From: Armillaria gallica
Lineage: Eukaryota; Basidiomycota; Agaricomycetes; Agaricales; Physalacriaceae
Assembly (NCBI GenBank): GCA_037576215.1
Contig: JBANDB010000006.1
Coordinates: forward strand, 4,030,001 to 4,094,000
Reading direction: 5' to 3'
DNA length: 64,000 nt
A model generated the notes under the pieces. That model saw only the letters and a list, made by a program, of their open reading frames with translations, searched no databases and was not told where the DNA came from. Positions 21,701-40,111 of this stretch are shown piece after piece. Position 1 is the stretch's first letter, and each line of letters opens with the position of its first letter. Made by a program: the position numbers and the translations under genes.

Positions 21701-24358
21701 GAAGCCAACGCGATGATGTTGACACGTATGGGATCTGGTGCAAAGCTGAAGTGGATGCTAAAACCAAAAATCCGAGCAAACAAGTCTTTGGTGGCGTTTG
21801 CGAAGCGAATGGCCAAGAAGAGATTTGTATTGCACGGCCCTAAGGCGTCTTCAGAAGCTGAGAGTGACAGTGGTTCTCCATTGTGGAACAATGGGTCGGA
21901 CCTAGGAGGAAGTAATGTCCCATCGTGGAACAATGGGGATGAGCTCTACATGGAGGGCGAGTCCGTCCCCAGCTCGTCGACATTGAACATCGACGAAGAC
22001 AGGGATGGTGCACTGCCACGATCACAACGTGTCCCGGTTGTCGATCCGGATTTACCGGAAGAACAACGAGATCTGATCGAAAACCTGGCTATACCGGATT
22101 CGGAGTTGCCGGCGGCCATGGCTGTGCAAAACCCTGACACGGACTTGGCTAGCTCGTCTCTGTCCTCGCTCACTGGGCTTGTCTCCACACGACTGCTAGG
22201 TGTCGATCTACTACCAATAGTCCGTAGACATATCTCTGGAGACTCAACACTATCTAAAGTACTGGAAGCTCCGTCTCAATTCAAGAATTTTTCAGTGGAA
22301 AATGGCCTCGTATACCTGCGTGAAGATGGCCAAAAATTGCTCTGTATACCGGACAATGTGCGCGTGCAAGATCGTAACCTCCAGGAGATCTTCATTAGTG
22401 AGGCACACTCCTTGGTGGCCCATCTGGGATCTTCAAAGATGCTGGCTTACTTACGGGACCACGTCTGGTGGAGAAACATCGCGAGGGATACTCGAGCTTA
22501 TTGTGAGTCTTGTTTGACATGCAAGCGAAGCAAACCCTCAAACCAGAAACCTTTTGGCCTACTAAACTCATTGAAGGTGGCAACTTACTCTTGGGAATCC
22601 ATGGGCTTTGATTTTGTAGGCCCTTTGCCTGAATTATCCAATCGGGACGGGACATTCAATAGCATTTCTGTATTCATAGACTTGCTAACTGGAATGGTAC
22701 ATTTGGTACCCTCTCGTACAAATTACAAAGCCCCACAAGTTGCAGAACTTGTATTCTCCGAAATCTACAAACACCATGGCCTACCGAAGAATATCATATC
22801 CGATCGCGATGTGATCTTCACAAGCAATTTCTGGACGCATCTCCATAAGCTCATGGGAGTCAACCTTCGGATGTCTAGCGCATATCACCCAGAATCCGAT
22901 GGATCAACAGAACGCGCGAATAGGACTATCACGCAGATGATCCGTAACTGTATCTCCTCGGATCAGAGAGACTGGGTCGCAAGGCTACTGGCTATCGAGT
23001 TCGCTATCAATAGTGCTTGGTCTGAATCAACGGGGTACTTGCCTTTCTTTTTGAACACTGGCCACATCCCCCGTTCCATGATTTGGAATTCTCCAACTGA
23101 TACGGAATTCCCGGGAGTGCGCAAATTTGCTGAGACCGTGAAAACTGCTCTGATGGATGCTCATGATACCATTTTGGCCACACGTGTCAAACAGACTCGG
23201 GATGCTAATAGGCATCGCTGCCCGTCTCCACTCACTCTAAATGATCTTGTATATGTTTCAACCAAGAATATATCTTTGCCCAAAGGATTGGCTCGCAAGC
23301 TCGCCCCAAAATTTATTGGTCCCTACCGCATTACAAGGGATTTCGGTAACAGCTCTTATGAGATTGAGTTACCTGTGGATCTCAAATGTCGTGGTATTCA
23401 CAATGTCTTCCATGCATCCTTGCTTCACGTACACATTCCCAACGACGATAGACTATTTCCTGGCCGGTCTGATGCACAAGTTGGCCTTACCGAACCCCTC
23501 GAGAAAGAATGGAAAGTCTTGAATGTCGTCTCACATGTTGGGAGGGGTGAACGCGCGATCTTCCAAGTGGAATGGGCTTCAGGCGATCAGACTTGGCTGC
23601 CCTATGCTGATGCCGAGGGTCTCGCTGCGCTTCAAGATTATTTCAACGTGCTCGGCATCTCAAAAATTTCTGAATTGAAGGAGGGCTCAGGCTCATCAGA
23701 TGACAAGCCTGGGTTTTTCCTAGGGGCCATTGATATTGACCATGGCCCCAATGTTTCGGAAGGAGGACAGAGGAAGAAGAAATTTTCATCGGGTTTTTGG
23801 GTTGGGGAGGGACCATCTGGTCATAAGAAGGATCAGACTGCAACAAGCTATTTCGCCGACCACTGCATCTCTGCGCTTCCCTGTCCATCTCCCATCCATC
23901 AGAACCTCGACAACATCCATTCTCAGCTTGATTCCCTCAGAACAAGCCACTTATCCCCACGAGGTTTGACTAAAGCCGTCGATGACCTCGATTCCTCACT
24001 GTACACCCTCCACATCTCTATCCACAATAAACTCTATGCCTCCCCTCCCAGTACTGACAAACTTCATCCGCTCGGGCCTGTATTTCATCGCGCTGAAGAC
24101 CAGCAAGAAGCCGATAGGCTTCCACCGCGAACAAGTGATTCTCTACATCAAGCATGCGAATCATCTGGCAAAAGGAGACATACCTTCGGGTTGGGTCGAG
24201 CCCGCAGGGTACAAGGTCTTCGCAGCCGCATGGAACAAGGAGGAGGCTGCACCCAGCGCATTCCCAGTACAACAAGGATCCACTGTCGAGACGATCATGG
24301 ATATTCGCGTGACAATCGACGAGATTTTTCCGCCCTTGCCACTCAAGAGGAAGGCTGA
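18716..24358 (+). pseudogene. pol: Element A pol: protease, RT, RNase H, integrase
   Basis: Same frame as the second part of gag, cut by stops at 19061-19063 and 21131-21133. Visible in order: retropepsin-like ALIDSGS at about 19805-19825; reverse transcriptase with VYLDDIIVYS at 20768-20797; RNase H (IVTDASS, HEQEM, the MDHKG region) from 21221; integrase zinc site (H-X4-H, then CESCLTC) at 22400-22525; the integrase catalytic triad D (FDFVGPLP, 22607), D (SDRD, 22799) and E (TERAN, 22908); and a chromodomain-like tail (WKVLNVVSHV...TWLPYADAEG) at 23510-23620. The last 90 residues of this frame look like the wrong frame, because a coding-like frame continues as the next feature. Confidence 0.85.
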
Positions 24359-24748: not shown

Positions 24749-24767
24749 TGTAGGAGACTCGTGCCGG
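24749..24767 (+). repeat. First 19 bp of element A 3' LTR
   Basis: TGTAGGAGACTCGTGCCGG, identical to the start of the 5' LTR. The LTR is interrupted here by element B and resumes at 39829. The last four bases (24764-24767, CCGG) are the left target duplication of B. Confidence 0.9.
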
Positions 24768-26136
24768 TGATACGCCGTCTACGCGTTCACACCTAGATTT
24801 TGCGATTTTATAATAATACTATTGCATATCTATCTTACATTAGTGATACTTAAAGGACTATAGCTGAGGCTTCGAAGCTGATAGTTAGACTAGTATGCGA
24901 CTAGTAGAGCCAGGACTTAGATGCGATACCACTAGTGGGTTAAATCTACCAGCCGGCCATACTAGTGACTTGAATGCTAACAGGGCTAAGTGAATACGGC
25001 CACTAGTGGACAAGTAATGCGACTAGCGCACCAAACAAGAAGCAGAGGACACAAATCTCGTGAAGTTCGGTCACTAGCGAGCCGCTCTGGGCATAAACGC
25101 CTAAGTCAGGTTAACTAGTCACGCGGCAATCTCGAAACAGGACTTAGAAATGAATTAGCAACGGATTAACCTTGCGGTAGATCCGCCAGGTGCGATACAG
25201 ATCCATTGCGATCGGTACTAGTATAGCCGGGCTGCGCCTTCGATCACGATCGACAGCTGTTACAGGCACGCTCGCCTGGCTAGTCATTTATCCTTGGCAC
25301 TAGTGGAGCGTCGCTGGGCCCAGGACACGGAATACAACTGCTAGCGGAGCTCCTAGGCTCACTAGTCAGCAAGCGATCGTTTCTAGACCGACTATTGCGT
25401 GATTATTCACCATTATTCGTGACTAGCCAAGAAATCCTTATCAATAATACCTCTCTAGTCAGTTATTTATATCTCGATCGTACCTTGTTTGTCAGTATAT
25501 AAGTAGTAGAATAGGCGCACGCGTGGCTCAGGCAAGCCATCCCCGCAATTGTGACCTACTAGTCAGTATCTAGTGCCCCAATTAAAGGCTTTTGTGCTTA
25601 ACCTTGACGAAGCGGCTACTAGTCGCTAAGTTACCCATAGCATTGAGTGAATAGAAGTGTCTTAGAGTAATCTTTTGTGTCCTGCAAAGGCCAAGAGTGT
25701 TTCGAAGTTAGTTCAAGCAAGTTCTCGAAGTTTAAAGTATTATTCTTAGGCCAAGAGTGCCACTAGTCTGCCTAGAAAGCGACTAGTCAAGTGTTTATTC
25801 ACTTGTAAGACATTACAGGGCCAAGAGAGCCACTAGTTCGAAGCAGTCCCAGTCAGAGCGAGCGCAGTAGCTCAAGTCAAGTCACTATTCATCCAATTGT
25901 GTCTTACAAACCCCACTAGTGCGAGTAGTACGCTTGTATAGCTCACTAGTAACGAAATAAAACGTCTTTAAACAACTTTCCTTGATTATTGAAGTCTGCA
26001 GAGTGCTTCTATCGTACTCGAAACGCCCGAATTCAATACATTGGTGATAAGTGTAGAGTTAGTGATTGGTTTAGTGTTGTTGGTGTTCATTGCCAGCCTC
26101 TAGTCCATTTGCCACTCGCCGTTACCGAGCACATCA
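24768..26136 (+). repeat. 5' LTR of element B, 1369 bp
   Basis: Begins TGATACGCC and ends GAGCACATCA (TG..CA). It contains 16 ACTAGT palindromes, a TATATAAG box at 25496-25503, and three ggccaagag words between 25690 and 25830. Its length equals that of the 3' LTR, and I found no difference in the stretches compared, so the insertion is recent. Confidence 0.92.
25496..25503 (+). promoter_or_regulatory. TATA box in element B 5' LTR
   Basis: TATATAAG about 640 bp before the LTR end. It recurs at 39188-39195 in the 3' LTR. It probably sets the start of the genomic transcript, with the R and U5 regions downstream. Inferred from the motif only. Confidence 0.5.
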
Positions 26137-26138
26137 TC

Positions 26139-26156
26139 TGGAGCCCACCGCGAGGG
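26139..26156 (+). promoter_or_regulatory. Primer binding site of element B
   Basis: TGGAGCCCACCGCGAGGG lies two bases after the 5' LTR. A PBS starting TGG pairs with the CCA end of a tRNA, as usual for Ty3/Gypsy elements. The tRNA identity cannot be assigned without the tRNA set of the organism. Confidence 0.7.
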
Positions 26157-26239
26157 GGAGTTTCAGACTTGATAATCTCGTTGAATTAAGACTTTTATTT
26201 GACACTAGTCTTGTTAAATAAACTACTATTCAACCTAGC

Positions 26240-26628
26240 AGCTTGTACGCAATCTGTCTAACCAAGCCTCAGCGAAAGCGAAGGGCAAAGCTAGAGTAAC
26301 AGAGCCCGCACAAGCATCGTCTTCGAGGCCAGCACCTAATAGTGCCGCCACAAGACCAAAAGGAAGATCAACAGCCAATTCAAAAGCTGCTGGTGTTGGA
26401 GTCCCGTCTAACTACGACTTATTAAAGAATAAACGAAGTGCAACTGCACCGCCCGATAGCCCACAAGCTAGGACAGAGCAGCAAATCAACGCGAATCTTA
26501 ACATCCAACAGACAAGACCCCTTGCACCGCACCCACGGCGAAGACCTTCCCCCTCTAGTGGATCAACAAACCCACTAGCACCTGGACAATCGAACTCCCA
26601 GTCCATTCAAACCGCTAGTAGACCGATC
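26240..26628 (+). other. In-frame open extension upstream of element B gag
   Basis: After a TAG near 26236 the gag frame is open for about 130 codons before the first ATG (26629). Its composition is like a disordered gag N-terminus, rich in Ser, Ala, Pro, Asn and Arg (for example SNYDLLKNKRSATAPPDSP). No ATG is present in this stretch. It could be translated from a non-AUG start or joined to an upstream exon by splicing (a CTAGCAG acceptor-like site lies near 26236-26242), or it may be untranslated leader. Confidence 0.4.
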
Positions 26629-28152
26629 ATGTCCGCTAGCACCCAAAAGATGCCTAGACCGACATCTAGGGACGCGCCCAAGTTTGATAGCGATGAGCCT
26701 GAGAACTTGCATCGTTTCCTTGGTCAGATGGAGGATTTATTCTCTGACTATAGCATCACCGACGACGACGAGAAGAAGAAGAAACTAGTGAGGTACACGG
26801 ATGCGCGTACTGAAGAAGAATGGCAAGCATTGGAGGAGTATGATGGTGGTACCTTCGCCGAGTTCAAGGACGCGATCTTGAAGAACTATCCAGAGGCGGC
26901 AGACACAGAGACAGGCACTTGGGAGAGGCTCACGCATATTTCGCGTAAGTTCTCGAACCTTGGGGCTGACGAGCGCGAGTCGTACCTGAAATTCAAGCAC
27001 AGGTTCTTGACTGAAGCCAAGAAACTACAGAAGCCTCCAGCGCTAGTCACGAATCGTGAACTAGTGGAAAAATTCACCGAGTCGTTGTCACCTGCGTTTA
27101 GAGAAAACATCGCGTCGCGACTGAGTATCAAGCGTGGAATCAAAAACGGGACAAGTGCGCCCGCCCCTGCTCCTGCTCCTGCTGCTGCCGCAGCTGGTGC
27201 TGCCGCCGCGGGTGCTGCTGTTGCTGCACCTGTAGTCGCGAGACCCATCAAGAGGCGTGAAGATATGCACACCCTCGATGAGGTTGTTGCTGAAGCAGAT
27301 GATATCGCTCTCAACAGCTCTACTAGTTACCTTCTGTCAGCGACTAGTGGAAGTGTATCATCGACCGGAGCCACTAGTGGTTCTGGAATCAAGGCAGAAT
27401 TTGAAGATGTGAAGCAGCAAGTAGCTGCTTTACTTGATCGCATTGACGTGAGTGAGAAACAGGCGAAGGAGCGTCAAGAACAAATATTGAAAGTCTTTCA
27501 ACAAGGCGGAAATAATAGCTCCTCGTCTAAGCAATCGCGACCTCAGAATGAACACTCGGGAGCGGGACCAAATGACAACTGCTGGTACGACTGGAAGCCT
27601 GGACATTATGTGAAGAATTGCCAGAACATCCAGAAGCATGTAGCAGAAGGTTTGTTGAAGCTCGTCGATAAGAAGTTCATGATGATAGATGGGACAGCTA
27701 TCCCGCACGAGCCAGCTCATCTCTGCCCAATGGATCGTATGCTTGCATCGTTGAATAAAAGGCAAGAACAGATGTTCTGGGAAGATGTTAGTGGGCCCGC
27801 TGGTATATTCAATATCAACGTACCTGATAACACTTCCTTGTATGCGAACAAGCCTCGAGATGCTAGAGACGAAGTAATTGACAAACTTCGCCAAGATCTG
27901 CAATATTGGCAGACTAGTACTCATGTTCCAACATCGGTTCAGCCTCAGTTGTTACAAGCACCTGTACCATCTACTAGTAGTCAGCCAATGAATCAATCCT
28001 TTGACCCTAATGTGTTCTTGAACCAAATGAGGTCACTATTCAATCAGGCCGGTAGTCAGAATGCGACTAGTGGCCAGAACTTCGAAGGTCAGTATGTTGC
28101 CACATGCACTAGCGGTGGTGAGTCTTCCCAACAGGGTTTCGAAAGGGTCTGA
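26629..28152 (+). CDS. gag: Element B Gag protein
   Basis: 507 residues from ATG 26629. An N-terminal capsid-like helical region (residues about 15-165; PKFDSDEPENLHRFLGQMED, then GTWERLTHISRKFS) is followed by an Ala/Pro/Gly-rich linker (residues 180-205), a coiled-coil-like segment (VKQQVAALLDRIDVSEKQ) and a knuckle-like motif at about 27577-27618. That motif reads CWYDWKPGHYVKNC: the second Cys of a CCHC knuckle is missing. The protein would form the particle shell and package RNA. Its stop overlaps the next start as TGATG (28150-28154). The coding sequence contains eight ACTAGT. Confidence 0.85.
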   Translation: MSASTQKMPRPTSRDAPKFDSDEPENLHRFLGQMEDLFSDYSITDDDEKKKKLVRYTDARTEEEWQALEEYDGGTFAEFKDAILKNYPEAADTETGTWERLTHISRKFSNLGADERESYLKFKHRFLTEAKKLQKPPALVTNRELVEKFTESLSPAFRENIASRLSIKRGIKNGTSAPAPAPAPAAAAAGAAAAGAAVAAPVVARPIKRREDMHTLDEVVAEADDIALNSSTSYLLSATSGSVSSTGATSGSGIKAEFEDVKQQVAALLDRIDVSEKQAKERQEQILKVFQQGGNNSSSSKQSRPQNEHSGAGPNDNCWYDWKPGHYVKNCQNIQKHVAEGLLKLVDKKFMMIDGTAIPHEPAHLCPMDRMLASLNKRQEQMFWEDVSGPAGIFNINVPDNTSLYANKPRDARDEVIDKLRQDLQYWQTSTHVPTSVQPQLLQAPVPSTSSQPMNQSFDPNVFLNQMRSLFNQAGSQNATSGQNFEGQYVATCTSGGESSQQGFERV

Positions 28153-29462
28153 TGAAAGCTACGGGGAAGAATAAGTCGATCCCTACGACTATTCCCCATA
28201 AACAGCCGGAGGACCATTTTAAAAACCGACCAAAGGGAACTGAACCGAAGAAATATGCAAAGAAAGCGATTGAACCAGTGTCTGATGAATCTGATGAATC
28301 TGAAAACGAAATACCAGTACCAAGAGAACCCACTAGTAAGAAAGTCGTTGTGGAAATTCCCACTATCCGACCCACTAGTAAGAAACCGGTTACTGTAGAA
28401 GACGCTAGTGATGATGAGGATGAGGCCCCATGGCGAGAACTACCTTTTAGGAAAGTTCCGAGTGTAAGTTTCGCGCCCCTTCCCTCAGATAGCGCAAACA
28501 AAAAGAAAACTAAAGTAAGATTCGATGAATCCAAAGCACCAGCATATAAACATACGGCGCCTATCCATAAGGAAGGTAGAGTGCAGGATGTCACGTCTAA
28601 AGTATTGAAAATGCCTATTGTCTTGAATGCAGAAGAACTTATGGATCTGTCGGAGCCATTAAGGAAAGAGATCGCTAAGTTGATGGCCAAGAAAAGGATT
28701 TCGACGCAGCCGGTGACCGAACAGATGTATAGTGCGGGGGAGACTCAACCTGAGTCCGACCCGTTACCATTTAGTGAGACTAGTGATGAAGAAGACGCGA
28801 CTAGTGAGGACTTGTCCTTGAAGTCTGACGCGATCGACATCCATGACTTGCCATCTGGGACGTTTATGGCTGCGCAATTCAATGTTGGCTTGATACCAGC
28901 TGGCTCTCTAATTATGTCCGACCCGTATCTTCAGTATCTTGACTCACTAGCGCCAGGAGAAAAGCCTAAGCAGGTAATAGTCGTGAAAGACTCGGCTAGT
29001 CTGCGAGCTGTGTATCCAGTAATCAATGGCGCAGGCGAAGAAGAAAGTGTAGTTGACGGAGGCTCGCAGATAGTATCGATGGCTAGTATGATAGCAACCA
29101 AGCTTGGAGTAGCTTGGGATCCTGACATTACCATCCATATGCAGAGCGCGAATGGTCAACTAGAGAAAACCTTAGGGCTAGCGAGGAATGTTCCGTTCCT
29201 TTTCAATGATATCACTGTGTACTTGCAAATACACATCATCGCTAGTCCCGCATATAAAGTACTACTAGGCCGGCCGTTTGATGTCCTCACTGAGAGTGTA
29301 ATCAGGAATCATGCAGACGGTGGCCAAATCATTACTATCACTGATCCTAACACTGGTCGAAGGTGCACTATTCCAACCTTCCTGAGGGGTGCGCCTCCTC
29401 GGGTTGCGAAAGCTGTTCCTAAGGCTACTGAAGAGGGTTTTCATTTGAACTCAATGAATTGA
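28152..29462 (+). CDS. Element B protease-containing protein
   Basis: 436 residues from ATG 28152, which shares its A with the gag stop. The first 230 residues are charged and probably disordered. A retropepsin-like domain follows at residues 295-410, with the catalytic-type strand ESVVDGGSQIVSM (DGG where DSG or DTG is usual) and the later LLGRPFDVL signature. It would process the polyproteins. It ends TGA at 29460-29462, again overlapping the next ATG as TGATG (29460-29464). Confidence 0.8.
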   Translation: MKATGKNKSIPTTIPHKQPEDHFKNRPKGTEPKKYAKKAIEPVSDESDESENEIPVPREPTSKKVVVEIPTIRPTSKKPVTVEDASDDEDEAPWRELPFRKVPSVSFAPLPSDSANKKKTKVRFDESKAPAYKHTAPIHKEGRVQDVTSKVLKMPIVLNAEELMDLSEPLRKEIAKLMAKKRISTQPVTEQMYSAGETQPESDPLPFSETSDEEDATSEDLSLKSDAIDIHDLPSGTFMAAQFNVGLIPAGSLIMSDPYLQYLDSLAPGEKPKQVIVVKDSASLRAVYPVINGAGEEESVVDGGSQIVSMASMIATKLGVAWDPDITIHMQSANGQLEKTLGLARNVPFLFNDITVYLQIHIIASPAYKVLLGRPFDVLTESVIRNHADGGQIITITDPNTGRRCTIPTFLRGAPPRVAKAVPKATEEGFHLNSMN

Positions 29463-32400
29463 TGAACGATCAAGGAGAGTTAGCCCTGCAAATCGTGCAG
29501 ACTAGTGATGGTAAGTTTGAGATTGAAGGCTATATGAAGCCAAAAGAAGGCGCTAGTTTCTCAGAGAAAGAGCTACGCGACAGCTTCCTCATGGCCTCGA
29601 TGGCTAGCGAAGAAAACCTTTTGCAAGATGAGCAAGCCAAGGGACTATTGAACTCTTACTTCCAAGGTAAGGTAGTTCCAGAAGGCTATAAAATGCAATA
29701 TCATGTGTGCGAGCACACTAGTGATGGCTCTCCGTTACTAGACGATACTGAAATCCCAATCTATAATGTACTAGTTGATAACTTGCGCGCAAAATCGAAG
29801 ACTAGCCAACCTACAAAGAAAAAGACGGCACTAGTCCCCGGTTTTGAGCACCTTGGTGTGCGCATGAAGAGCCCCGACTTTAAGCCAGTCGCAGTGCTCA
29901 CTAGTAAGAAATATAAGCCTGTGGCACTAAAAGTAAAGCCACTATTAGGCGATCTGCCGGACAAGTTTCGAATAGTGAGAGACATTAAGGGTGATCCCCT
30001 CAAGGACATCCCACTATTGAGCACTAGCCCGCCAGAATATGTGCCTACAGCGCGCTATACCCCTGAAAGAAAAGCTAAGATTGACGAAAACCATCCAGAA
30101 GGATTTCTATGGCCAGAAGAGCGCAAGCTAATGCACCATTTTATGACTATCCAAGAGCAAGCTTTTGCTTGGGATGACACGGAACGTGGGCATTTCCGAG
30201 AGGACTTCTTCCTGCCAATAGATATTCCTGTAGTACCACACACTCCATGGGTTTTGAAGAATATCCCCATCCCGCCTGGAATCTACGAGGAAGTCTGTCG
30301 GATTATTAAATCCAAGATCGACGCTGGTGTATACGAGCCGTCTAATTCCTCCTACAGATCGAGGTGGTTCTGTGTAATTAAGAAAGACGGTAAAAGTCTT
30401 CGACTAGTGCATAGTTTGGAGCCTCTGAATGCAGTGACTATCGCGCATTCTGGGATTCCGCCGGCCACAGACGAACTATCCGAGCATTTTGCAGGAAGAG
30501 CGTGTGGCGGGTGTTTGGACCTGTATGTTGGATATGACGAGCGAGATATCGCTATTGGATCCAGAGACTATACTACGTTCCAAACTCCTTTCGGTTCGAT
30601 GCGACTAGTGAAATTACCAATGGGTTGGACTAATTCGGTACCAATATTCCATGAAGATGTAACGCATATCCTACGAGAAGAAATACCACATGTCACTCGT
30701 CCCTATATCGATGATGTACCTGTACGAGGGCCCAAAACTCGCTATGAAACTGAGGATGGGGGCTTTGAGACTATCCCGGAAAACCCTGGGATTCGTCATT
30801 TTGTATGGGAACATATGCAGAACATGAATCGAGTGGTTCAACGGATGAAATATTGTGGAGGTACCTTCTCTGGGCCTAAGACGTTCTTGTGTGTTGAGGA
30901 AATGATGGTGGTCGGTCATCTATGCACGTATGAAGGAAGAAAAATCGAACCTGATAGAGCTGGAGTCATCAGTCGTTGGGGTCCTTGTCAGCACCTCACG
31001 GATGTACGAGCCTTTCTGGGCACTTGTGGAGTCTGTCGAAAGTTTATAAGGGACTATTCGAAGATAGCGGAACCACTGGTCAAGTTGACGCGACTCAATG
31101 TACCCTTCGAGTGGGAGGCTGAACAGCAGCTAGCCATGGACAAGCTCAAGCATGCAGTCGTGACTAGTCCGGCTATTCGACCGATTGACCTCACTAGTGA
31201 TGCAGAAGTGGGTCTATGCATTGATACTTCGTACAAAGCTGTTGGATTCTACATCTATCAAGTCGACGAGAAGGATCCTACCAAGCGCTATTATGTGCGC
31301 TTTGGTTCGATCACTATGAACGAAAGAGAAGCGCGGTTTTCACAGCCCAAACATGAGTTGTATGGTCTATTGCGAGCTTTAAAGGCTTGTCAGTATTGGC
31401 TTATTGGAATTCGCAACTTAGTGGTTGAGACCGATGCGCAGTACATCAAGGGTATGCTAAGCAACCCAGGAATGGGACCAAATGCCACTATCAATCGTTG
31501 GATAGAGGATATCTTGATGTTTCATTTCACCCTTCGACATGTGAAAGGTAGTACTTTCCCTGCTGACGGACTATCGAGGCAAGATGCGCAACCTGGCGAC
31601 GAGATCCATCCTGACTTGGAGGATTACGAGCTAGAGGACCATGGCCCTTTGCAGTTTGAAGTAGCGGAAGGGACTAGTGAGCTGCCGAAGGAACTAGAGG
31701 AATTTAAGAATGAAATTGATAGTCGAGGTGGTTACATGCATGCACTAGCCACTAGTATCGACGATTTTTCTGTAGAATTAGACGAAGCCCGCTCTCGTGA
31801 ACTAGAACTAAGAAATCTTTACTTAGCACAGGAGAAAACCAATGAAACCATATGCCAGTTCTTGAAAGCGACTCCACTCATTCCTGATCTCGAGTATAAG
31901 TTCGATCCTAACAAAAGAGAGGACTATCCAGAGAAACAACGGACTAGTAGTGGACTAGCGCAAGACGGACGGCTGCCACATATCAGGACTTGGTTGAGGA
32001 ACCCTAGACACCGCCCAGAAGGACTTAACGACAAGCAATACTTGACTTTCAAGCAGTACTGTCGTAACTTCTTCTTGGACAAAGAAGGCAGACTATATAG
32101 ACGCAGTACTGAAGGAGACCACCGGCTAGTAGTGGATAAAGAGCATCGAATGTATATGATGAGATCGGCACATGACTCGTTAGGACATAGAGGCTTTTAC
32201 GCGACTAAGTCACTGTTGGAGCAACGGTTTTGGTGGCCAGAGTTGGAACAAGATGTCAGTTGGTATGTCAAGTCTTGTCATTTATGTCAAGTCAGACAGA
32301 AGACTATGGTCCGTATTCCACCCTCTGTCACCGAAACGCCTTCGCTATTCCAGAAAGTACACTGCGATACTATGGTTATGACCCCGGTTTCTAATAAGTG

Positions 32401-33520
32401 CAGGTATATAGTTCACGCACGCGATTCGTTATCGTCTTGGCCAGAAGCAAGGGCCTTACAGCAAGAAAATGCTAAAGCAATTGCGGTTTGGTTCTTTGAG
32501 GATGTGATATGCAGGTGGGGCTGTCCCAACGAAATAGTAACTGATAACGGCGGACCTTGGGTCGCAGTTATACAGTGGCTAAGTGACAAGTATGGCATCA
32601 CCGGCATAAAGATCACTCCTTACAACTCGCAAGCGAATGGAAAAATTGAAAGAGGCCATTGGGACATTCGTCAATCGCTATTTAAGGTGACTAGTGGCAA
32701 CCCAAAGAAGTGGTTTTACTTCCTACCGCATGTGTTGTGGGCGGACCGTATCACTATCAAACGCGGTACCGGTTGCTCGCCATATTTCATGGCACTAGGC
32801 GCACATCCAATAGTACCCCTTGATGTAGTTGAAGCTACTTGGCTAGTCAAGCCCCCAAGTGGAATCTTGAGCACCGAGGACCTTATTGGTATGAGGGCGA
32901 CAGCACTAGCCAAGCACGCTAAACATGTAATGGCCATGCGACAGAAAATTAATAAGAATAAGCTCGATACTGTACTACGCTACCAACGCGAGCACAAGGC
33001 CACTATTGTCGATTACGACTTCAAACCAGGTCGACTAGTGCTTATGCGGAACACGCGGGTCGAGGAAAGTCTCGATAGCAAGATGGAGCCGAGGTACTTG
33101 GGGCCACTAGTCGTTATCAGAAGGACTAGAGGTGGTGCTTATGTTTTAGCAGAGTTGGATGGATCCCTGGTGGGCGGCACAGTCGCTCAGTTTAGAGTAA
33201 TTCCATACCATGCGAGGCATAGTATCGAGTTACCCAAGAAAATTCATGATTTGATCGATGTAAGTCCCCAAACTCTTAAGGAGTTGGTGACTAGTGACGA
33301 GTCTGTCCCAACAGAATGTCACTATCGACCCTTAGGCAAGAAACTATATGGTATAGACCAAGTTAGGCTGCAACAGAGCGACACTAGTGAATCTGACAGC
33401 GAAGATTCAGGTTCGGAGGCCGAAGGATACCTTCAGCCCGACGAATATGATAGCAATAGTGATGAAGACAACAAGGTCCCCATCACTAGTCGACTTAGAA
33501 GCTCGAAAACTGCAGGCTAG
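29462..33520 (+). CDS. pol: Element B Pol: reverse transcriptase, RNase H, integrase
   Basis: 1352 residues, fully open. Reverse transcriptase spans residues about 270-480, with LPMGWTNSVPIF and catalytic YIDD at about 30703-30714. RNase H follows (CIDTSYKAVG, KHELYG, ETDAQY). Integrase has the H-H-C-C zinc site (HDSLGHRGFY, then CHLCQ) near 32170-32300 and a D, D, E triad in HCDTM (about 32360), VTDNG (about 32540) and KIERGH (about 32645). The C-terminus is acidic, and I see no chromodomain. It starts at the ATG of TGATG 29460-29464, so a separate translation event is needed, probably termination-reinitiation. Eighteen ACTAGT occur in this gene, encoding Thr-Ser or Leu-Val. Confidence 0.9.
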   Translation: MNDQGELALQIVQTSDGKFEIEGYMKPKEGASFSEKELRDSFLMASMASEENLLQDEQAKGLLNSYFQGKVVPEGYKMQYHVCEHTSDGSPLLDDTEIPIYNVLVDNLRAKSKTSQPTKKKTALVPGFEHLGVRMKSPDFKPVAVLTSKKYKPVALKVKPLLGDLPDKFRIVRDIKGDPLKDIPLLSTSPPEYVPTARYTPERKAKIDENHPEGFLWPEERKLMHHFMTIQEQAFAWDDTERGHFREDFFLPIDIPVVPHTPWVLKNIPIPPGIYEEVCRIIKSKIDAGVYEPSNSSYRSRWFCVIKKDGKSLRLVHSLEPLNAVTIAHSGIPPATDELSEHFAGRACGGCLDLYVGYDERDIAIGSRDYTTFQTPFGSMRLVKLPMGWTNSVPIFHEDVTHILREEIPHVTRPYIDDVPVRGPKTRYETEDGGFETIPENPGIRHFVWEHMQNMNRVVQRMKYCGGTFSGPKTFLCVEEMMVVGHLCTYEGRKIEPDRAGVISRWGPCQHLTDVRAFLGTCGVCRKFIRDYSKIAEPLVKLTRLNVPFEWEAEQQLAMDKLKHAVVTSPAIRPIDLTSDAEVGLCIDTSYKAVGFYIYQVDEKDPTKRYYVRFGSITMNEREARFSQPKHELYGLLRALKACQYWLIGIRNLVVETDAQYIKGMLSNPGMGPNATINRWIEDILMFHFTLRHVKGSTFPADGLSRQDAQPGDEIHPDLEDYELEDHGPLQFEVAEGTSELPKELEEFKNEIDSRGGYMHALATSIDDFSVELDEARSRELELRNLYLAQEKTNETICQFLKATPLIPDLEYKFDPNKREDYPEKQRTSSGLAQDGRLPHIRTWLRNPRHRPEGLNDKQYLTFKQYCRNFFLDKEGRLYRRSTEGDHRLVVDKEHRMYMMRSAHDSLGHRGFYATKSLLEQRFWWPELEQDVSWYVKSCHLCQVRQKTMVRIPPSVTETPSLFQKVHCDTMVMTPVSNKCRYIVHARDSLSSWPEARALQQENAKAIAVWFFEDVICRWGCPNEIVTDNGGPWVAVIQWLSDKYGITGIKITPYNSQANGKIERGHWDIRQSLFKVTSGNPKKWFYFLPHVLWADRITIKRGTGCSPYFMALGAHPIVPLDVVEATWLVKPPSGILSTEDLIGMRATALAKHAKHVMAMRQKINKNKLDTVLRYQREHKATIVDYDFKPGRLVLMRNTRVEESLDSKMEPRYLGPLVVIRRTRGGAYVLAELDGSLVGGTVAQFRVIPYHARHSIELPKKIHDLIDVSPQTLKELVTSDESVPTECHYRPLGKKLYGIDQVRLQQSDTSESDSEDSGSEAEGYLQPDEYDSNSDEDNKVPITSRLRSSKTAG

Positions 33521-33665
33521 AACGGTCAAACACACTTTATATTGCTAGGTAACGACGGTGTATGCTAGATACTGTATCTAAGCAGTTGGAAATTATGAGA
33601 AACGACAGACTGGTGATTGAAAACTTTTATATATGGCGACTAGTGACCGTTCCGAACAGCTAGCG

Positions 33666-35167
33666 CTAGCCAAGCTTGGAACTAGAGGCAACGGGAGCAG
33701 GAGAATCGTCTTCCATAGGTACCGGGAGACGACTTTCGAGCTGCTTGACGACTTGGCCATGATGAGCGACCACAAACTCGCGGTACTTGAGTAAGTACTC
33801 GATCTTGTGGGTCGTAGCAATCACGTCATTGTGAAGATCAGCCTCTCTAGAGCGTAAAACGCTCTCGGAAGGATTGACATGATCTCCAGCACTGACTAGC
33901 ACGGCCGCAGCGTCGACAGTGCTCTGACTAGCCTCGTTGTTGATAGCTAAGTCAGCCGCTAGTAAAAGAAAGAGGGTCAATAGCGCATTGCAAAGCTCAC
34001 TAGTAAGCACATACCAGCAATAGTGAAAGGGGAATCCTTGAAAGCATGGTCAGCCGAGGCACGAGGACGCTTCCTGGCTTGGATAGCAGCCTCGTTGGCC
34101 TTCCCTTTGGCGATAATCGCTTCGGCGGCCTGGTAATTGTGTAAAGATGAGTCAAAGTCGGCTACTAGTGATATGAAATCACCTGAATAGCCTCGGCACG
34201 ACGCTCTGCCTTCTCCTTTTCCCTCTGAAAGAAAACCTTAGACTAGTAAAGAAGAAAACCCGACTAGTAGACTAACCTGAGCAGCCTGAGCAACCTTCTT
34301 GTTCTTGAGGAACTTGGGGAGCGTAATCTTGTGTCCTTCAACGATGTTACCGGAAGTAGGGTCACGATTGACAATGACGTCGACATCTTCATCGATATTC
34401 ATCTGTTCAAACTGTGAAATGACGGTATCAGCCTGGCGACGAACAGTAGCTAAGGTAAACAATACCGAGTCAGTTTCCTGCGGCGCATTGGAAGCATCAG
34501 GGTTACCCATGACCGTATCCTCCTCGGTTGCTGCGACAATGCTAGCCTCTTCGTCGGACGAGTCCTCGACGATAGCCCGTGACTTAGCAAGACGACGGCT
34601 TCGTTTGGCAGGCTAATGGTCGAAACAGTCGGTCAGAAAGCGAAAGAACAATAACTAGTGAGGTACTCACTGCCTTAGAAGCTTTAGCCTTGCCACTAGT
34701 GGCCACGGTTTTGGCGGGAGTAGCAGGAACAGGATCAGGAGCAGAAGGAGTGGTAACAGTGGCAATAGCACTCGCTAGAGCTGCCGATCGCTTTTTGCAC
34801 TCGCTATGAATAGTCCCAGTAAAGGAACGAACGGTGTGGTAGTCCTTGAACGTCGGGATGGTCGGATGCTCATCAAGGATGCGCTCGAAAACCTGCTTCA
34901 TGCGAAAACACACGTCTTCAGCCTTCGAGTCACCTATGATAGCGGCGGCGTGATGGATAATAAGCTGTGCCTAGGACACTAGTCAGCGAAAACTTAGTAT
35001 AGAAATGACTAGTGTCCACATACCCCAATAGCACAAACGCTCTTGCCCTGGTCAATGATAGTCTCCAAGGGTATGCCTTTTTTCCTGACCTCCCACAACG
35101 TGTCAGCGGCTTGGATGGCATCGTTGCCTTGAGCAATGAGGAGTGCGACGCCGGCAGGATTGGACAT
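33666..35167 (-). CDS. Gene X: antisense, spliced, nuclear-type protein carried by element B
   Basis: Minus strand, exons (genomic order) 33666-33958, 34015-34129, 34183-34224, 34277-34612, 34671-34970, 35024-35167. Five introns of 52-58 nt, all GT..AG; exon sum 1230 nt gives 409 residues and a stop, which supports the model. The start is ATG 35167-35165 (MSNPAGVALLIAQG). Visible: a basic, NLS-like PAKRSRRLAKSR at about 149-160; an acidic Ser/Glu stretch after it; a helical charged segment REKEKAERRAEAIQ with KRPRA later; and another helical region near the end. No known enzyme motif is visible. Each intron holds at least one ACTAGT (seven in 272 nt), while the exons hold one. The 676-bp upstream region holds ten. 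I infer a nuclear regulatory role; the function is not recognised. Confidence 0.75.
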
Positions 35168-35843
35168 GACTAGTAACGAGAATTTTGATAGAAAGTTGGA
35201 AAACCTTTTGAGTGATGAAGCTAGTCACGGAAAGAAGTCCACTAGTGAGACGACAAAGTGACTAGTCAATGAGGACGTTGAATTTATAGTGTGGGGGAGA
35301 ACCGTGCGCTTGGACTTAGTAAATATCTCGACGAAAAATTTCACGAAAATTTCCGAGGAATTTCAATGATAAATTACTAAGGTCCAGACCATGAATAACA
35401 CCGCTCACGCAATATCGACCTGTCAAAAGGAATACCCCAGTCGAATTGAAATGACTAGTGATGAAGGAATCGAACCAAGATCTAATTGATCGCCAATAGT
35501 GCAATCACGATCGGACACTAGTGGAAATTCTAAGTCACTAGTGGACTTGTAATTTTGAATGAGTTCACTAGTCCCCTTTAGGGTCACTAGTGACCTTGCA
35601 AGATGATTAAAACACCTCGATTGGGCAAGAGCTTCACTAGTCTCATGGGAAAAGGGACTTAGATGTATTCCTTACAAACGACCTCACATCGCACAGAGAG
35701 AGCAAGCATATGAAAATATTTGTATTTAGGTGCCTATCCACACTTATGGCACTAGTTAATAAGAAAGAAACATATGCCCTAAAGGCGTGCACAGAAAACT
35801 ATAGTGAAAACGTTTGCATTTTAAAAAGCCCAAGGCTGACAGA
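35168..35843 (-). promoter_or_regulatory. Gene X upstream region packed with ACTAGT
   Basis: 676 bases between the end of gene Y and the start of gene X, both on the minus strand. ACTAGT begins at 35169, 35241, 35261, 35454, 35517, 35537, 35567, 35586, 35636 and 35751, about one per 68 bp. No long open frame. It is probably the promoter of gene X and the 3' flank of gene Y. The density suggests binding sites, possibly for autoregulation; that is inference. Confidence 0.5.
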
Positions 35844-38003
35844 TCAAGCCACCCCTGGCGCACCATCAGGAGAAGGACGAATGGGGGAGCTTGTGATTTG
35901 ATCAACGAGTGTGTCGACTTCATCGCCTGAGTCCCCTTTAGCCACCACACTAGCCTCCCGAGACGGAACTGGAAGAGTAGCGATTCTGGGACCCTCGACG
36001 ATGGGAGAGAGAGGCCGTTCGCCCCTAAGAAGGGGATGGTGGGAAGCTGGAGCAGCGACGCTCTCGAATGAACAGGTCCCGCCGGCTGAAGGCAACATGA
36101 TCAGGAAAGAAGAAAGCAAACACGAGAGGTGGCAAACGTACTAGCGTCCGAAGGAATGGGAGAAGACCGTTCAAGCTTAAGGAGAGCCACCCGCAGTTGT
36201 TCGTCGAAGTCCTGGCTCTCAAAGACGATTCCGCGGAGAGCACCCCTCCCTTCGCTGATGGCAGCATCCTGACAGATACCAAGGGTCTCTTCCAAGAAGG
36301 CACGGTATTGCTGCGCAGCGTGAGCAGCGGCGTTTGCACAGTTTTCAAAAACTTGGAGAGCGGTGGTTGTACGGCTGATGGAAGTACGAACGTCTTCAGG
36401 AGTGAAAAACAAGATTAGCAACCAAAAGAAATCACAAGAAACGAATGTACTATCAGGGGTTGCCTCAACAAACTTTGCCAGTTCCTTACGAGCAAAGTAA
36501 CGCTGAAGAGGCTCTGCACAGAAGGAACAGAGGCTCTTGGTAGCCGCCTCGCAATTGTTGCAGCGTTTGCCCCACCCCAAGAAGACGCAGGCTTGGTTTT
36601 GGACGCTAGAAGAACATTGAGCGCATCCATACCGAGGCTGGTAAAGCAAAGTAGGGAGTAAGCGGAAGCGTAGGAAAGGGAGGAGAAATACTCACCACAA
36701 TCGACGCCTGTAAGATGGGATCGATTTCCTCGTCTTTAACGGGGACTGGAACCTCTCTACCATACCGGTGCGCTGAAAACCTGCTAGTCAGAGGAGAAAT
36801 GCGAAGAATGATTTAGAAAACTGACTGCCGAAAGCTAAATGCTTCTTGTTCTTGATAGTTACCGTGGCAGGGGCTGCTACCTTGGACGAGGAAGCCACAG
36901 GCTTCTCCTCCTTGGCAACGACTCGCTGCGAGGACCGCGTACCACGGGAACTACTGGCCACTAGTCAAGTAGTCAGCCAGAGAGAACACTACGACGCAAG
37001 GAAAGAAGGCTTACTGGGAGCAGGTTCGTCCTTCACTGAACCAGGCTGGGTCCTCGCGACCTTCTTAGGCAGACCAATTGGTACAGTAATCGAGAGGCCG
37101 ACCTCGGGTTCCTTGGGATAGGTGAACTTCTTCTTATGCGACGACGCCTTCTGCTTTTGGTGCTTGGAAGTGCCTTTAACCTAAACCGAGGCAGCCACCT
37201 AAGTAGACGGCAAGCAAGAAAACGAAAGTACATACCAGAGGAGCAGGGCCACTAGTGGAGGAAGCTTTGCCAGGCGACCGAGCCTTGAGCTTGGGAGCAC
37301 CTTTACCACCAGTGTGCTATGTAAAAAGAGTGAATCGATAAGCGAAACATGAAAGAGATCGACGACTGACCTGGGGGAGGATATCCTCCTCAGACTCGTC
37401 CAATTCTTCCTCAACTCTGTTGTCGGTTCCGTTCTCCTCACTAGTGGCGTCGTTCCCTCCTTCGTCATCATCATCGGCGGAAGCATCCTGGTCGCCTGAA
37501 TCATCGACTGGGGAGGCTGGACGTTTACGACCCTTGGGTTTGGATAATGCGGAAAGGAAAATGTCGGGCAGCAGAGTATCTTCCTCGATTTTGGCACGCT
37601 GGGAGGGATTGTCCAATCGAAGGAAAGGAAAAGAAAAGACAATAGTACGCACCCCAGACCGTTCACGCATCTTTAGCTCCCAGCCGTCGAAGCTAGGAAG
37701 TTGCAAGTTCGCCAGGAGTTCGGCGACAATGGTCTCGCAGGTGTAAAGCAGGTCGCGTGCGAAGGACGCAGCCGGATGTGCTTTGTCCTCACGAGAAAGT
37801 TTCAGGATGCTGATCTAAAAAGAATTGCAAAGAGGAAAATTTTAGCAAGGACCGACAGCAATAGTAAAGGATTCGCGTACCAAGAAGGGAGTGCCATCTT
37901 TTAACGCCTGAGAGAGTTCTTTCGGCCGGCATTGACCACGCTTGTCTGGATTGAGAAAGGGACGGAGTCGATTGACCCCAGCAGCGAAATCCTCGGGCCT
38001 CAT
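35844..38003 (-). CDS. Gene Y: antisense, spliced, Cys-rich protein carried by element B
   Basis: Minus strand, exons (genomic order) 35844-36085, 36142-36393, 36451-36637, 36696-36772, 36826-36960, 37015-37180, 37236-37316, 37371-37598, 37653-37814, 37881-38003. Nine introns of 53-66 nt, all GT..AG; the exon sum of 1653 nt gives 550 residues and a stop. The start is ATG 38003-38001 (MRPEDFAAGVNRLRPF). The N-terminal 95 residues look folded. Then come an acidic run (DDSGDQDASADDDDEGG), a Lys/His-rich basic stretch (HQKQKASSHKKKF), and a Cys cluster at about residues 328-356 with spacing C-X2-C-X8-C-X8-C-X2-C-X7-C-X2-C, followed by helices. The Cys cluster implies zinc binding and the basic stretch a nuclear location. 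The family is not named with certainty. Confidence 0.75.
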
Positions 38004-38451
38004 GAGTGAAAAGAGAGGAACACTAGTGAAGACTAAGGACGAATAGTCAACGGGAGGAGCCAGCAATGAAATTTTATAGAAGTCAGACTTAGGTTTGATT
38101 CAATACAGTTTTCCAAGCTGAGCTTGAAACGGCTGTGCCGGCGGTGCGGCTAGCAACCTCCTCGATCACAGTAGTTGCTCATACACTACTAGTAGCTGTA
38201 GCATGCAATGAGAACGAATGAATAAGATAAGAAACCGTCCTAGCAAAGCAAGATTTGCGCTGTCATGCGGGAACCTGAAAATCATTAAGTGAATTTGATG
38301 ATCATTGATGGCCAAGTGCCAGTCGGACTTAGTGACTGAAACGTGATCGAGACCTGTGACCTCGAAAGAATTAGCAACGGGCCACTAGTAGGACATACTG
38401 CTAAGTACAAAAAGGGACTTAGATGACTGGGGACAGTCATTATTACAGTAT
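38004..38451. other. Upstream of gene Y, end of element B interior
   Basis: No gene. It has three ACTAGT (near 38021, 38188, 38384) and should hold the minus-strand promoter of gene Y. The minus frame upstream of the gene Y ATG is open back to a TGA near 38099 but has no ATG. Confidence 0.45.
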
Positions 38452-38459
38452 GGGGGAGA
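38452..38459 (+). promoter_or_regulatory. Polypurine tract of element B
   Basis: GGGGGAGA directly abuts the 3' LTR, where plus-strand DNA synthesis is primed in Ty3/Gypsy elements. It is preceded by tacagtat. Confidence 0.75.
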
Positions 38460-39828
38460 TGATACGCCGTCTACGCGTTCACACCTAGATTTTGCGATTT
38501 TATAATAATACTATTGCATATCTATCTTACATTAGTGATACTTAAAGGACTATAGCTGAGGCTTCGAAGCTGATAGTTAGACTAGTATGCGACTAGTAGA
38601 GCCAGGACTTAGATGCGATACCACTAGTGGGTTAAATCTACCAGCCGGCCATACTAGTGACTTGAATGCTAACAGGGCTAAGTGAATACGGCCACTAGTG
38701 GACAAGTAATGCGACTAGCGCACCAAACAAGAAGCAGAGGACACAAATCTCGTGAAGTTCGGTCACTAGCGAGCCGCTCTGGGCATAAACGCCTAAGTCA
38801 GGTTAACTAGTCACGCGGCAATCTCGAAACAGGACTTAGAAATGAATTAGCAACGGATTAACCTTGCGGTAGATCCGCCAGGTGCGATACAGATCCATTG
38901 CGATCGGTACTAGTATAGCCGGGCTGCGCCTTCGATCACGATCGACAGCTGTTACAGGCACGCTCGCCTGGCTAGTCATTTATCCTTGGCACTAGTGGAG
39001 CGTCGCTGGGCCCAGGACACGGAATACAACTGCTAGCGGAGCTCCTAGGCTCACTAGTCAGCAAGCGATCGTTTCTAGACCGACTATTGCGTGATTATTC
39101 ACCATTATTCGTGACTAGCCAAGAAATCCTTATCAATAATACCTCTCTAGTCAGTTATTTATATCTCGATCGTACCTTGTTTGTCAGTATATAAGTAGTA
39201 GAATAGGCGCACGCGTGGCTCAGGCAAGCCATCCCCGCAATTGTGACCTACTAGTCAGTATCTAGTGCCCCAATTAAAGGCTTTTGTGCTTAACCTTGAC
39301 GAAGCGGCTACTAGTCGCTAAGTTACCCATAGCATTGAGTGAATAGAAGTGTCTTAGAGTAATCTTTTGTGTCCTGCAAAGGCCAAGAGTGTTTCGAAGT
39401 TAGTTCAAGCAAGTTCTCGAAGTTTAAAGTATTATTCTTAGGCCAAGAGTGCCACTAGTCTGCCTAGAAAGCGACTAGTCAAGTGTTTATTCACTTGTAA
39501 GACATTACAGGGCCAAGAGAGCCACTAGTTCGAAGCAGTCCCAGTCAGAGCGAGCGCAGTAGCTCAAGTCAAGTCACTATTCATCCAATTGTGTCTTACA
39601 AACCCCACTAGTGCGAGTAGTACGCTTGTATAGCTCACTAGTAACGAAATAAAACGTCTTTAAACAACTTTCCTTGATTATTGAAGTCTGCAGAGTGCTT
39701 CTATCGTACTCGAAACGCCCGAATTCAATACATTGGTGATAAGTGTAGAGTTAGTGATTGGTTTAGTGTTGTTGGTGTTCATTGCCAGCCTCTAGTCCAT
39801 TTGCCACTCGCCGTTACCGAGCACATCA
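38460..39828 (+). repeat. 3' LTR of element B, 1369 bp
   Basis: Same start, end and length as 24768-26136, with a constant offset of 13,692. All 16 ACTAGT and the TATATAAG (39188-39195) are kept. No substitution was found in the stretches compared. Confidence 0.92.
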
Positions 39829-40111
39829 CCGGCTCTTTGTGCCAGTACTCCCGTGTGTGTTCTCTCTCTCTATCTAATCATTTATCTCTACATTTTATCT
39901 TACCGCGTTTCTATTACTTATCCTGATTCTCTATTGATTACTTAACTTCATTTATTTCTACTAGTATATAAGACCATAAAACTGTACTACGTACACCAGA
40001 CTACTCTAATCGACGTTCTTCCAACTGGTCTTTACTAGTCCGACTTTGTCTATGCTTCGTCTACCCTCTCGTGTGCCGCTACTGCCGACTCACCATCACA
40101 GTATCGTCACA
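39829..40111 (+). repeat. Remainder of element A 3' LTR, with CCGG duplication
   Basis: Starts with CCGG (39829-39832, right copy of the B target duplication), then the remaining 279 bp of the A LTR to CGTCACA at 40111. With 24749-24767 it makes 298 bp. It carries T or A at the six positions where the 5' LTR has CpG. The TATATAAG box is at 39965-39972. Confidence 0.9.

Follow-up and report, generated by a model that had tools for sequence, protein, structure and literature searches.

Why should a retrotransposon be filled from end to end with one palindromic hexamer? The question is raised by a Gypsy/Ty3-type long terminal repeat (LTR) retrotransposon, here called element A, of the basidiomycete Armillaria gallica, which lies in a stretch of 64,000 nucleotides of contig JBANDB010000006.1 (assembly GCA_037576215.1, positions 4,030,001 to 4,094,000 of the forward strand; hereafter the window, whose numbering is used throughout) and is saturated with the word ACTAGT. 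A preliminary description made by eye had put the number of copies in the element at about 88, where chance predicts about 4, and had taken binding by a protein, whether encoded by the element or by the host, as the simplest reading. As shown below, the copies are in register with the DNA helix, are partly written into gag and pol through synonymous codons, and give way to other words in related families. The reading that we favour, with moderate confidence, is that ACTAGT is recognised by a protein that binds cooperatively and is probably encoded by the element itself, which would act as a transactivator or as an anti-silencer.

The exact count of ACTAGT is 102 in the window, 88 within the element and 14 outside, two of the latter (39960 and 40034) lying no more than 210 bp from the 3' LTR. 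The preliminary figures were therefore accurate, including the 14 or so copies elsewhere in the window and the breakdown by part (16 per LTR, 1 in the leader, 25 between pol and the 3' LTR, and the gag, protease (PR) and pol counts of Table 1). An order-1 Markov model predicts 4.5 copies in the element, an excess of 19.6-fold, and ACTAGT is its most frequent hexamer; outside the element, the 25 window hexamers listed do not exceed about 3 times their expectation. The excess is not a genome-wide bias either, as the refuting result named in the preliminary description, an enrichment just as strong in unrelated A. gallica DNA, was not found: of 60 LTR flanks at 30 loci, the 50 outer ones without a match to the element hold 18 ACTAGT in 75 kb (0.24 per kb), nine of them within 340 bp of an LTR (three of these nine from locus L018 and two from the present window). 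Self-targeted integration at ACTAGT was rejected because these outer flanks are at background. Throughout the genome (86 Mb, 28 contigs), triple clusters of ACTAGT number 452, compared with 31 for the reversed pattern. An origin by tandem repetition, doubted from the start, was also rejected: the LTR pair is the only direct repeat of at least 60 bp found, and the arrays found by a tandem-repeat scan (27167-27232, 28281-28303 and 35331-35365) contain no ACTAGT.

Among the nine classes of one-mismatch words, ACTAGC/GCTAGT (28 versus 7.8 expected) and ACTATT/AATAGT (24 versus 6.7) are enriched in the element, and the other seven, which range from 2 versus 6.7 to 11 versus 7.6, are not clearly so; the earlier impression that near-misses are common thus holds for two classes. 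Both variants are about equally common on the two strands (15/13 and 12/12), which indicates selection on DNA and not on one RNA strand. The two-mismatch word ACTATC is enriched as well (18 versus 6.7) but strand-lopsided (13/5). Taken together, ACTAGT and its two variants make up 124 sites whose largest gap is 643 bp over 13.7 kb. ACTAGT is densest in the LTR (11.7 per kb) and in the region between two antisense genes that follow pol (14.6 per kb), with 3.1-4.4 per kb in gag, PR and pol, 5.3 in the body of antisense gene 1, where predicted introns hold six of its eight copies, and 1.4 in that of gene 2. Two further copies, at C1:3786446 and C1:4672085, likewise have ACTAGT clusters between their two antisense genes.

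The protein-coding sequence does not account for this excess. When codons were shuffled 1000 times with protein and codon usage preserved, ACTAGT in gag (8 versus a mean of 1.4 and a maximum of 5) and in pol (18 versus a mean of 4.2 and a maximum of 11) exceeded all shuffles, and the 4 copies in PR (mean 1.2) only equalled the maximum of 4. The comparison with Markov and codon-shuffled nulls, suggested as a check in the preliminary description, thus confirms the excess, with PR at the margin. After correction over all hexamers, the coding excess has a p of 0.003 for the pol locus L031, where CACTAG and ACTAGT are the top words, and of 0.017 for the subfamily copy L037, where ACTAGT leads. Thr-Ser (ACT AGT) is read at 22 of the 30 coding sites and Leu-Val (CTA GT) at the remaining 8.

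The spacing of the sites follows the turn of the double helix. With the 3' LTR left out, 48 of the 58 ACTAGT pairs up to 115 bp apart deviate by at most 1.5 bp from a multiple of 10.2 bp (17.1 expected), as do 114 of 145 pairs (42.6 expected) when the two enriched variants are added to give five words; period and variants were picked on the same data. The period is 10.20 bp (bootstrap 10.13-10.26), and frequent spacings between neighbours are 11, 19-21, 30-31, 41-42, 50-53 and 60-63 bp. Mean cosine declines with distance, from 0.84 at 6-60 bp to 0.60 at 171-230, 0.27 at 301-400 and -0.01 at 401-600 bp. Phasing is present separately in the LTR (21 ACTAGT pairs, cosine 0.89, p 0.0002; 44 five-word pairs, cosine 0.925), in the leader plus coding sequence (16 pairs, cosine 0.73, p 0.0006) and in the 3' region (21 pairs, cosine 0.53, p 0.0044), and in coding sequence it is also significant against jitter by whole codons (p 0.0002); the null of these tests displaces each site at random. 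Both variants share the phase of ACTAGT (cosine 0.77 and 0.83), and outside the element the three window words with enough pairs showed no phasing. The sites lie on one face of the helix in B-form register, at multiples of 10.2 bp, so that a protein reading them would probably bind cooperatively. The phasing, the density peaks and the family-specific words are new with respect to the preliminary description.

Related elements carry other words. A genome search for reverse transcriptase (RT) gave 94 matches, of which 30 loci were cut out for study, some of them in genome orientation; the counts quoted are strand-independent or per word pair. The 11 loci with at least 87% RT amino-acid identity (L031-L040 and L042; family A) are rich in ACTAGT (12-29 per 4.3 kb), and the word is enriched in none of the remaining 19 (0-2 each). 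In family C, which comprises nine loci of 65-71% identity (L044-L046, L048, L050-L052, L054 and L059), the top words include ACCAGG, CCTGGT, CCAGGT or ACCTGG; in family D (L055, L057, L058 and L060; 64-65%) they include TTGCCG or CGGCAA, and the four loci of family B (L043, L047, L049 and L053) have no outstanding word. The words picked in the RT loci were then tested in the flanks of one element per family. In the non-overlapping 3' flank, ACCWGG occurs 26 times in family C (5.6 expected under order-1 and 8.5 under order-2) and TTGCCG 18 times in family D (3.3 and 5.0); in the 5' flanks, of which 1.5 of 6 kb overlaps the RT locus, the corresponding counts are 44 (6.7 and 10.7) and 19 (2.8 and 3.1). 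The largest counts for words of other families in these flanks are TGCGAA with 10 versus 4.2 and ACTAGT with 3 versus 1.0 in D, and ACTAGT with 4 versus 1.5 in C. Within coding sequence only, corrected over all words, an excess is found at two family C loci (L044, p 0.04; L048, p 0.02). The family words are partly made through differing codons for shared residues: family A spells Arg-Leu-Val as CGA CTA GTG where family C has CGC CTG GTT, and for Thr-Arg family C has ACCAGG where family A has ACTCGT, ACTCGC or ACGCGA. The word is specific to its family in A and C and, more weakly, in D.

Two single relatives were also considered. L056 (64%) has a possible further word, TTCGCA/AGTTCG, with 20 copies versus 5.9 by codon shuffle, which is not significant over all words. 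For L041 (83%) a switch to TCTAGA was entertained, its coding frame holding 7 ATCTAG where 0.8 is expected (p 0.003 over all words); dense TCTAGA clusters show no excess genome-wide (34 versus 68 for a control pattern), which leaves the switch unsupported beyond that one element.

The sites are also conserved between subfamilies, as the preliminary description had proposed to examine. ACTAGT is retained at 15/16 sites from L031 to L037, 13/14 from L031 to L040, 6/6 from L031 to L042 and 14/15 from L037 to L040, where other non-CpG hexamers are retained at about 0.68 (one-sided binomial p of 0.019, 0.036, 0.10 and 0.023, respectively, with hexamers that overlap and comparisons that share sequences). 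Weaker comparisons are L040 to L031 (13/17 versus 0.54), L040 to L036 (11/17 versus 0.54) and L031 to L039 (10/11 versus 0.88). Among 29 near-identical LTR copies, CpG columns are about 20 times more variable than others (0.094 versus 0.0047), as expected from cytosine methylation, and this fits methylation as the silencing to be countered.

The two antisense genes are predicted to be spliced; comparison with homologues casts doubt on part of exon 4 of gene 1 and on the final exon of gene 2 in the splice model. Among the matches listed, every homologue (40 for gene 2 and 57 for gene 1) is an uncharacterised protein from Armillaria or Desarmillaria. P0037 (Armillaria novae-zelandiae, 634 amino acids) matches both queries and is perhaps an annotation fusion. 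In the gene 1 protein a basic stretch precedes an acidic one, an arrangement kept in most alignment rows. The Cys-rich segment of gene 2 is near-invariant in most of 15 aligned proteins, its last cysteine being Arg or His in most other aligned sequences and part of the segment being absent from one protein. It does not have the C-x2-C-x6-C spacing of Zn2Cys6 (Gal4-type) clusters, the spacing here being C-x2-C-x8-C, and its Pfam matches (C5HCH and Zn_ribbon_15) are below threshold. By position, 10 of the 11 ACTAGT loci (all but L036) have the gene 1 exon nearby, at 81-100% identity, and this exon was not found at L041, which lacks ACTAGT; the Cys-rich exon of gene 2 is near nine of them (not L037 or L038; 46-100%). 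At L035, RT identity is 98%, that of the gene 1 exon 95% and that of the gene 2 exon only 54%, with ACTAGT unchanged. Together with the co-occurrence of the exons, this locus weakly suggests that gene 1 is a better candidate than gene 2 for the protein that reads the sites. The antisense open reading frames (ORFs) of family B, C and D elements differ from genes 1 and 2, and profiles of both proteins gave nothing significant in the flanks of one element of each of these families (best E 0.039).

Under the explanation that we favour, a sequence-specific protein would recognise ACTAGT in double-stranded DNA, with ACTAGC and ACTATT as weaker sites. By reading a palindromic site and contacting its neighbours on the same helix face, such a protein would account for the word, its symmetry, its variants and its phasing. 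It would most probably be encoded by the element itself, with gene 1 as the favoured source, and the benefit to the element would drive the accumulation of sites. The protein could switch on the LTR and the antisense promoter, a role to which the density peaks in the LTR and in the region separating the two genes point, or could keep CpG-methylation silencing off the whole copy, as the sites throughout gag and pol suggest. Accessory genes and words both differ in related families, so that each family would be addressed separately, which suggests that each element is marked for its own DNA-binding protein. The general proposal of the preliminary description, a site for a protein of the element or of the host, emerges as the best supported reading on the strength of phasing, strand symmetry, synonymous codons, subfamily conservation and word replacement in relatives.

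Several results weigh against this explanation. From L031 to L036 ACTAGT is retained at 14/16 sites, below other hexamers (0.92), and among the 29 LTR copies it varies no differently from other non-CpG sequence (0.0040 versus 0.0047, a comparison of little power). In coding sequence only, after correction, the family words are not significant at L046 (p 0.13) and L052 (0.36) of family C or at any of three family D loci (L055, 0.17; L060, 0.16; L058, 0.49), L056 gives p 0.33, and three family B loci show no enriched word (p 0.25-0.41) although family B has antisense ORFs. The sites of families C and D are not phased (93 and 47 pairs, cosine 0.03 and -0.13). Searches with the two antisense proteins gave no Pfam match above cut-off and no significant PDB sequence match, and the link to gene 1 is a co-occurrence inside one family.

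A host transcription factor or chromatin protein might instead bind ACTAGT, the element having gained many sites to recruit it (enhancer capture). Every binding-site observation fits this equally well, including the peak density in the LTR and between the antisense genes, and it agrees with the lack of a recognised DNA-binding domain in either element protein. We consider it rather unlikely, given that related families in the same nucleus have other words on both sides of the RT region, which would call for one host factor per family, that an enhancer would not require sites all along gag-pol, and that outer flanks are at background for ACTAGT. Chromatin shape without any word-reading protein, with TA steps every 10.2 bp setting the rotational position of nucleosomes, seems improbable. 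The period of 10.20 bp does match that of nucleosomal DNA (about 10.2 bp, compared with 10.5 for free DNA), CTAG has a central TA step, and TA steps outside the motif lean slightly to its phase (cosine 0.17, 783 pairs); yet these steps are barely periodic among themselves (cosine 0.06, 3470 pairs), only two of the nine one-mismatch classes are enriched though four others retain the TA step, and the words of families C and D lack TA as well as phasing.

A role in the genomic RNA, where palindromic ACUAGU could pair with any other copy for dimerisation, packaging or splicing, would draw on two predicted acceptors of the antisense genes that read GACTAG and TACTAG and on the six sites in gene 1 introns. 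We regard it as very improbable because the period is 10.2 and not the approximately 11 of A-form RNA, and because sites fill the LTR and the region between the antisense genes; a motif of one RNA strand is further disfavoured by the strand symmetry of the asymmetric variants. It is scarcely credible that the word is an accident of mutation or composition, produced by CpG deamination of ACTAGCG or by codon bias, even though CpG columns are so variable between LTR copies and a G follows 70 of 144 ACTAGT ends. Of 72 sites, 18 have no possible CpG origin at either end and are phased equally well (cosine 0.79, 32 pairs), ACTAGC is itself enriched and phased, and the counts in gag and pol lie above the whole range of the codon-shuffle null, that in PR at its upper limit. 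CpG decay fails to account for the phasing, which rules out such an accident unless the mutagen shares the phase.

Comparisons with known systems draw on literature consulted mostly as abstracts, in which no account of a comparable system in LTR retrotransposons was found. The nearest likeness is with the VANC proteins of Arabidopsis VANDAL DNA transposons, which are described as binding short family-specific motifs, with support from chromatin immunoprecipitation sequencing and electrophoretic mobility shift assays, and as reducing methylation (PMC5735166, PMC10398659). As in those accounts, a short motif is dense here in one transposable element family and rare in its relatives. The VANDAL motif is read by an element-encoded anti-silencing protein, for which the counterpart and its effect would here be provided by the putative protein discussed above. 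VANDAL elements are also described as plant DNA transposons with mainly non-coding motifs in one orientation that arose from tandem repeats, whereas element A is a fungal LTR retrotransposon whose palindrome also occupies gag and pol (30 coding sites), lies outside the tandem arrays found and is helically phased. The foamy-virus accessory product Tas, by its description, binds and acts on both the LTR and an internal promoter (PMC4929722), and the sites are densest here in the same types of place; in element A, by contrast, they also extend along the coding frames, and the accessory genes lie in antisense and are predicted to be spliced. Antisense ORFs of unknown function are reported in the plant LTR retrotransposons Grande, RIRE2 and Retand, the Retand product TRP28 being predicted to bind DNA (PMC7264820, PMC11963269). 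These descriptions mention family-specific tandem repeats and, as far as they go, no family-specific saturating word; the antisense proteins of element A, for their part, match no Pfam family above cut-off.

The element itself has LTRs of 1369 bp each (TGAT..ATCA) that are identical to each other, which indicates a recent insertion. It is assigned to the Gypsy/Ty3 LTR retrotransposons by its two LTRs, its short target-site duplication and RNase H preceding integrase in one pol frame; no Pfam match was obtained for the RT domain of pol or for the gag frame. Its LTR family inserts at CpG: over loci L001-L030 the two central bases of the 4-bp target are CG in 20/27 outer 5' flanks and 18/25 outer 3' flanks, and CG, TG or CA in 26/27 and 25/25, against a CpG share of 5.4% of window dinucleotides. 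An exact 4-bp duplication is retained at 13/22 loci taken as solo LTRs. At L004 (C12:733477-736218) an LTR copy is nested within the LTR of another copy. The element without its 3' LTR contains GGACTTAG six times on the + strand (24913, 25140, 35312, 35655, 38325 and 38415) and never on the - strand, all of them located in the LTR, upstream of gene 2 or in the region that separates the antisense genes. A neighbouring open frame at 21134-24358 (1074 amino acids), Gypsy-pol-like by eye, ends just upstream of the element.

Table 1. Coordinates of element A and its parts in the window.
Feature	Position	Strand	Remarks
Gypsy/Ty3-type LTR retrotransposon (element A copy)	24768-39828	+	
Target-site duplication CCGG, 5' copy	24764..24767	.	
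5' LTR	24768..26136	+	16 ACTAGT; 23 sites including the two variants
gag frame	26239..28152	+	open frame, 637 amino acids; 8 ACTAGT
Protease (PR) frame	28122..29462	+	weak gag-asp_proteas match, below cut-off; 4 ACTAGT
pol	29432..33520	+	RNase H and integrase H2C2 above Pfam cut-off; 18 ACTAGT
Antisense gene 1	33666..35167	-	at least 5 predicted exons, ~400 amino acids, unannotated family; 8 ACTAGT
Region between antisense genes, presumed gene 1 promoter	35168..35850	.	10 ACTAGT, 14.6 per kb
Antisense gene 2	~35844..38003	-	~8 predicted exons; Cys-rich segment
Gene 2 Cys-rich segment	36518-36625	-	C-x2-C-x8-C-x8-C-x2-C-x7-C-x2-C
3' LTR	38460..39828	+	identical to 5' LTR
Target-site duplication CCGG, 3' copy	39829..39832	.	

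A more ambitious proposal, which we offer tentatively as possible rather than probable, is that element A presents the first self-recognition code of a retrotransposon, in which a protein of the element would coat the DNA of its own family end to end as a one-faced cooperative array, laid out through synonymous positions of gag and pol, and in which a switch of word would split families into separately addressed lineages. A binding test in vitro could be applied directly to a word that fills one family along a single helix face and is swapped in sister families. If the proposal is true, DNA-level sites would be under selection within protein-coding genes, sequence-specific self-recognition by transposons would reach beyond plant DNA transposons to fungal retrotransposons, and the code would provide a function for the widespread and so far unexplained antisense genes of LTR retrotransposons.

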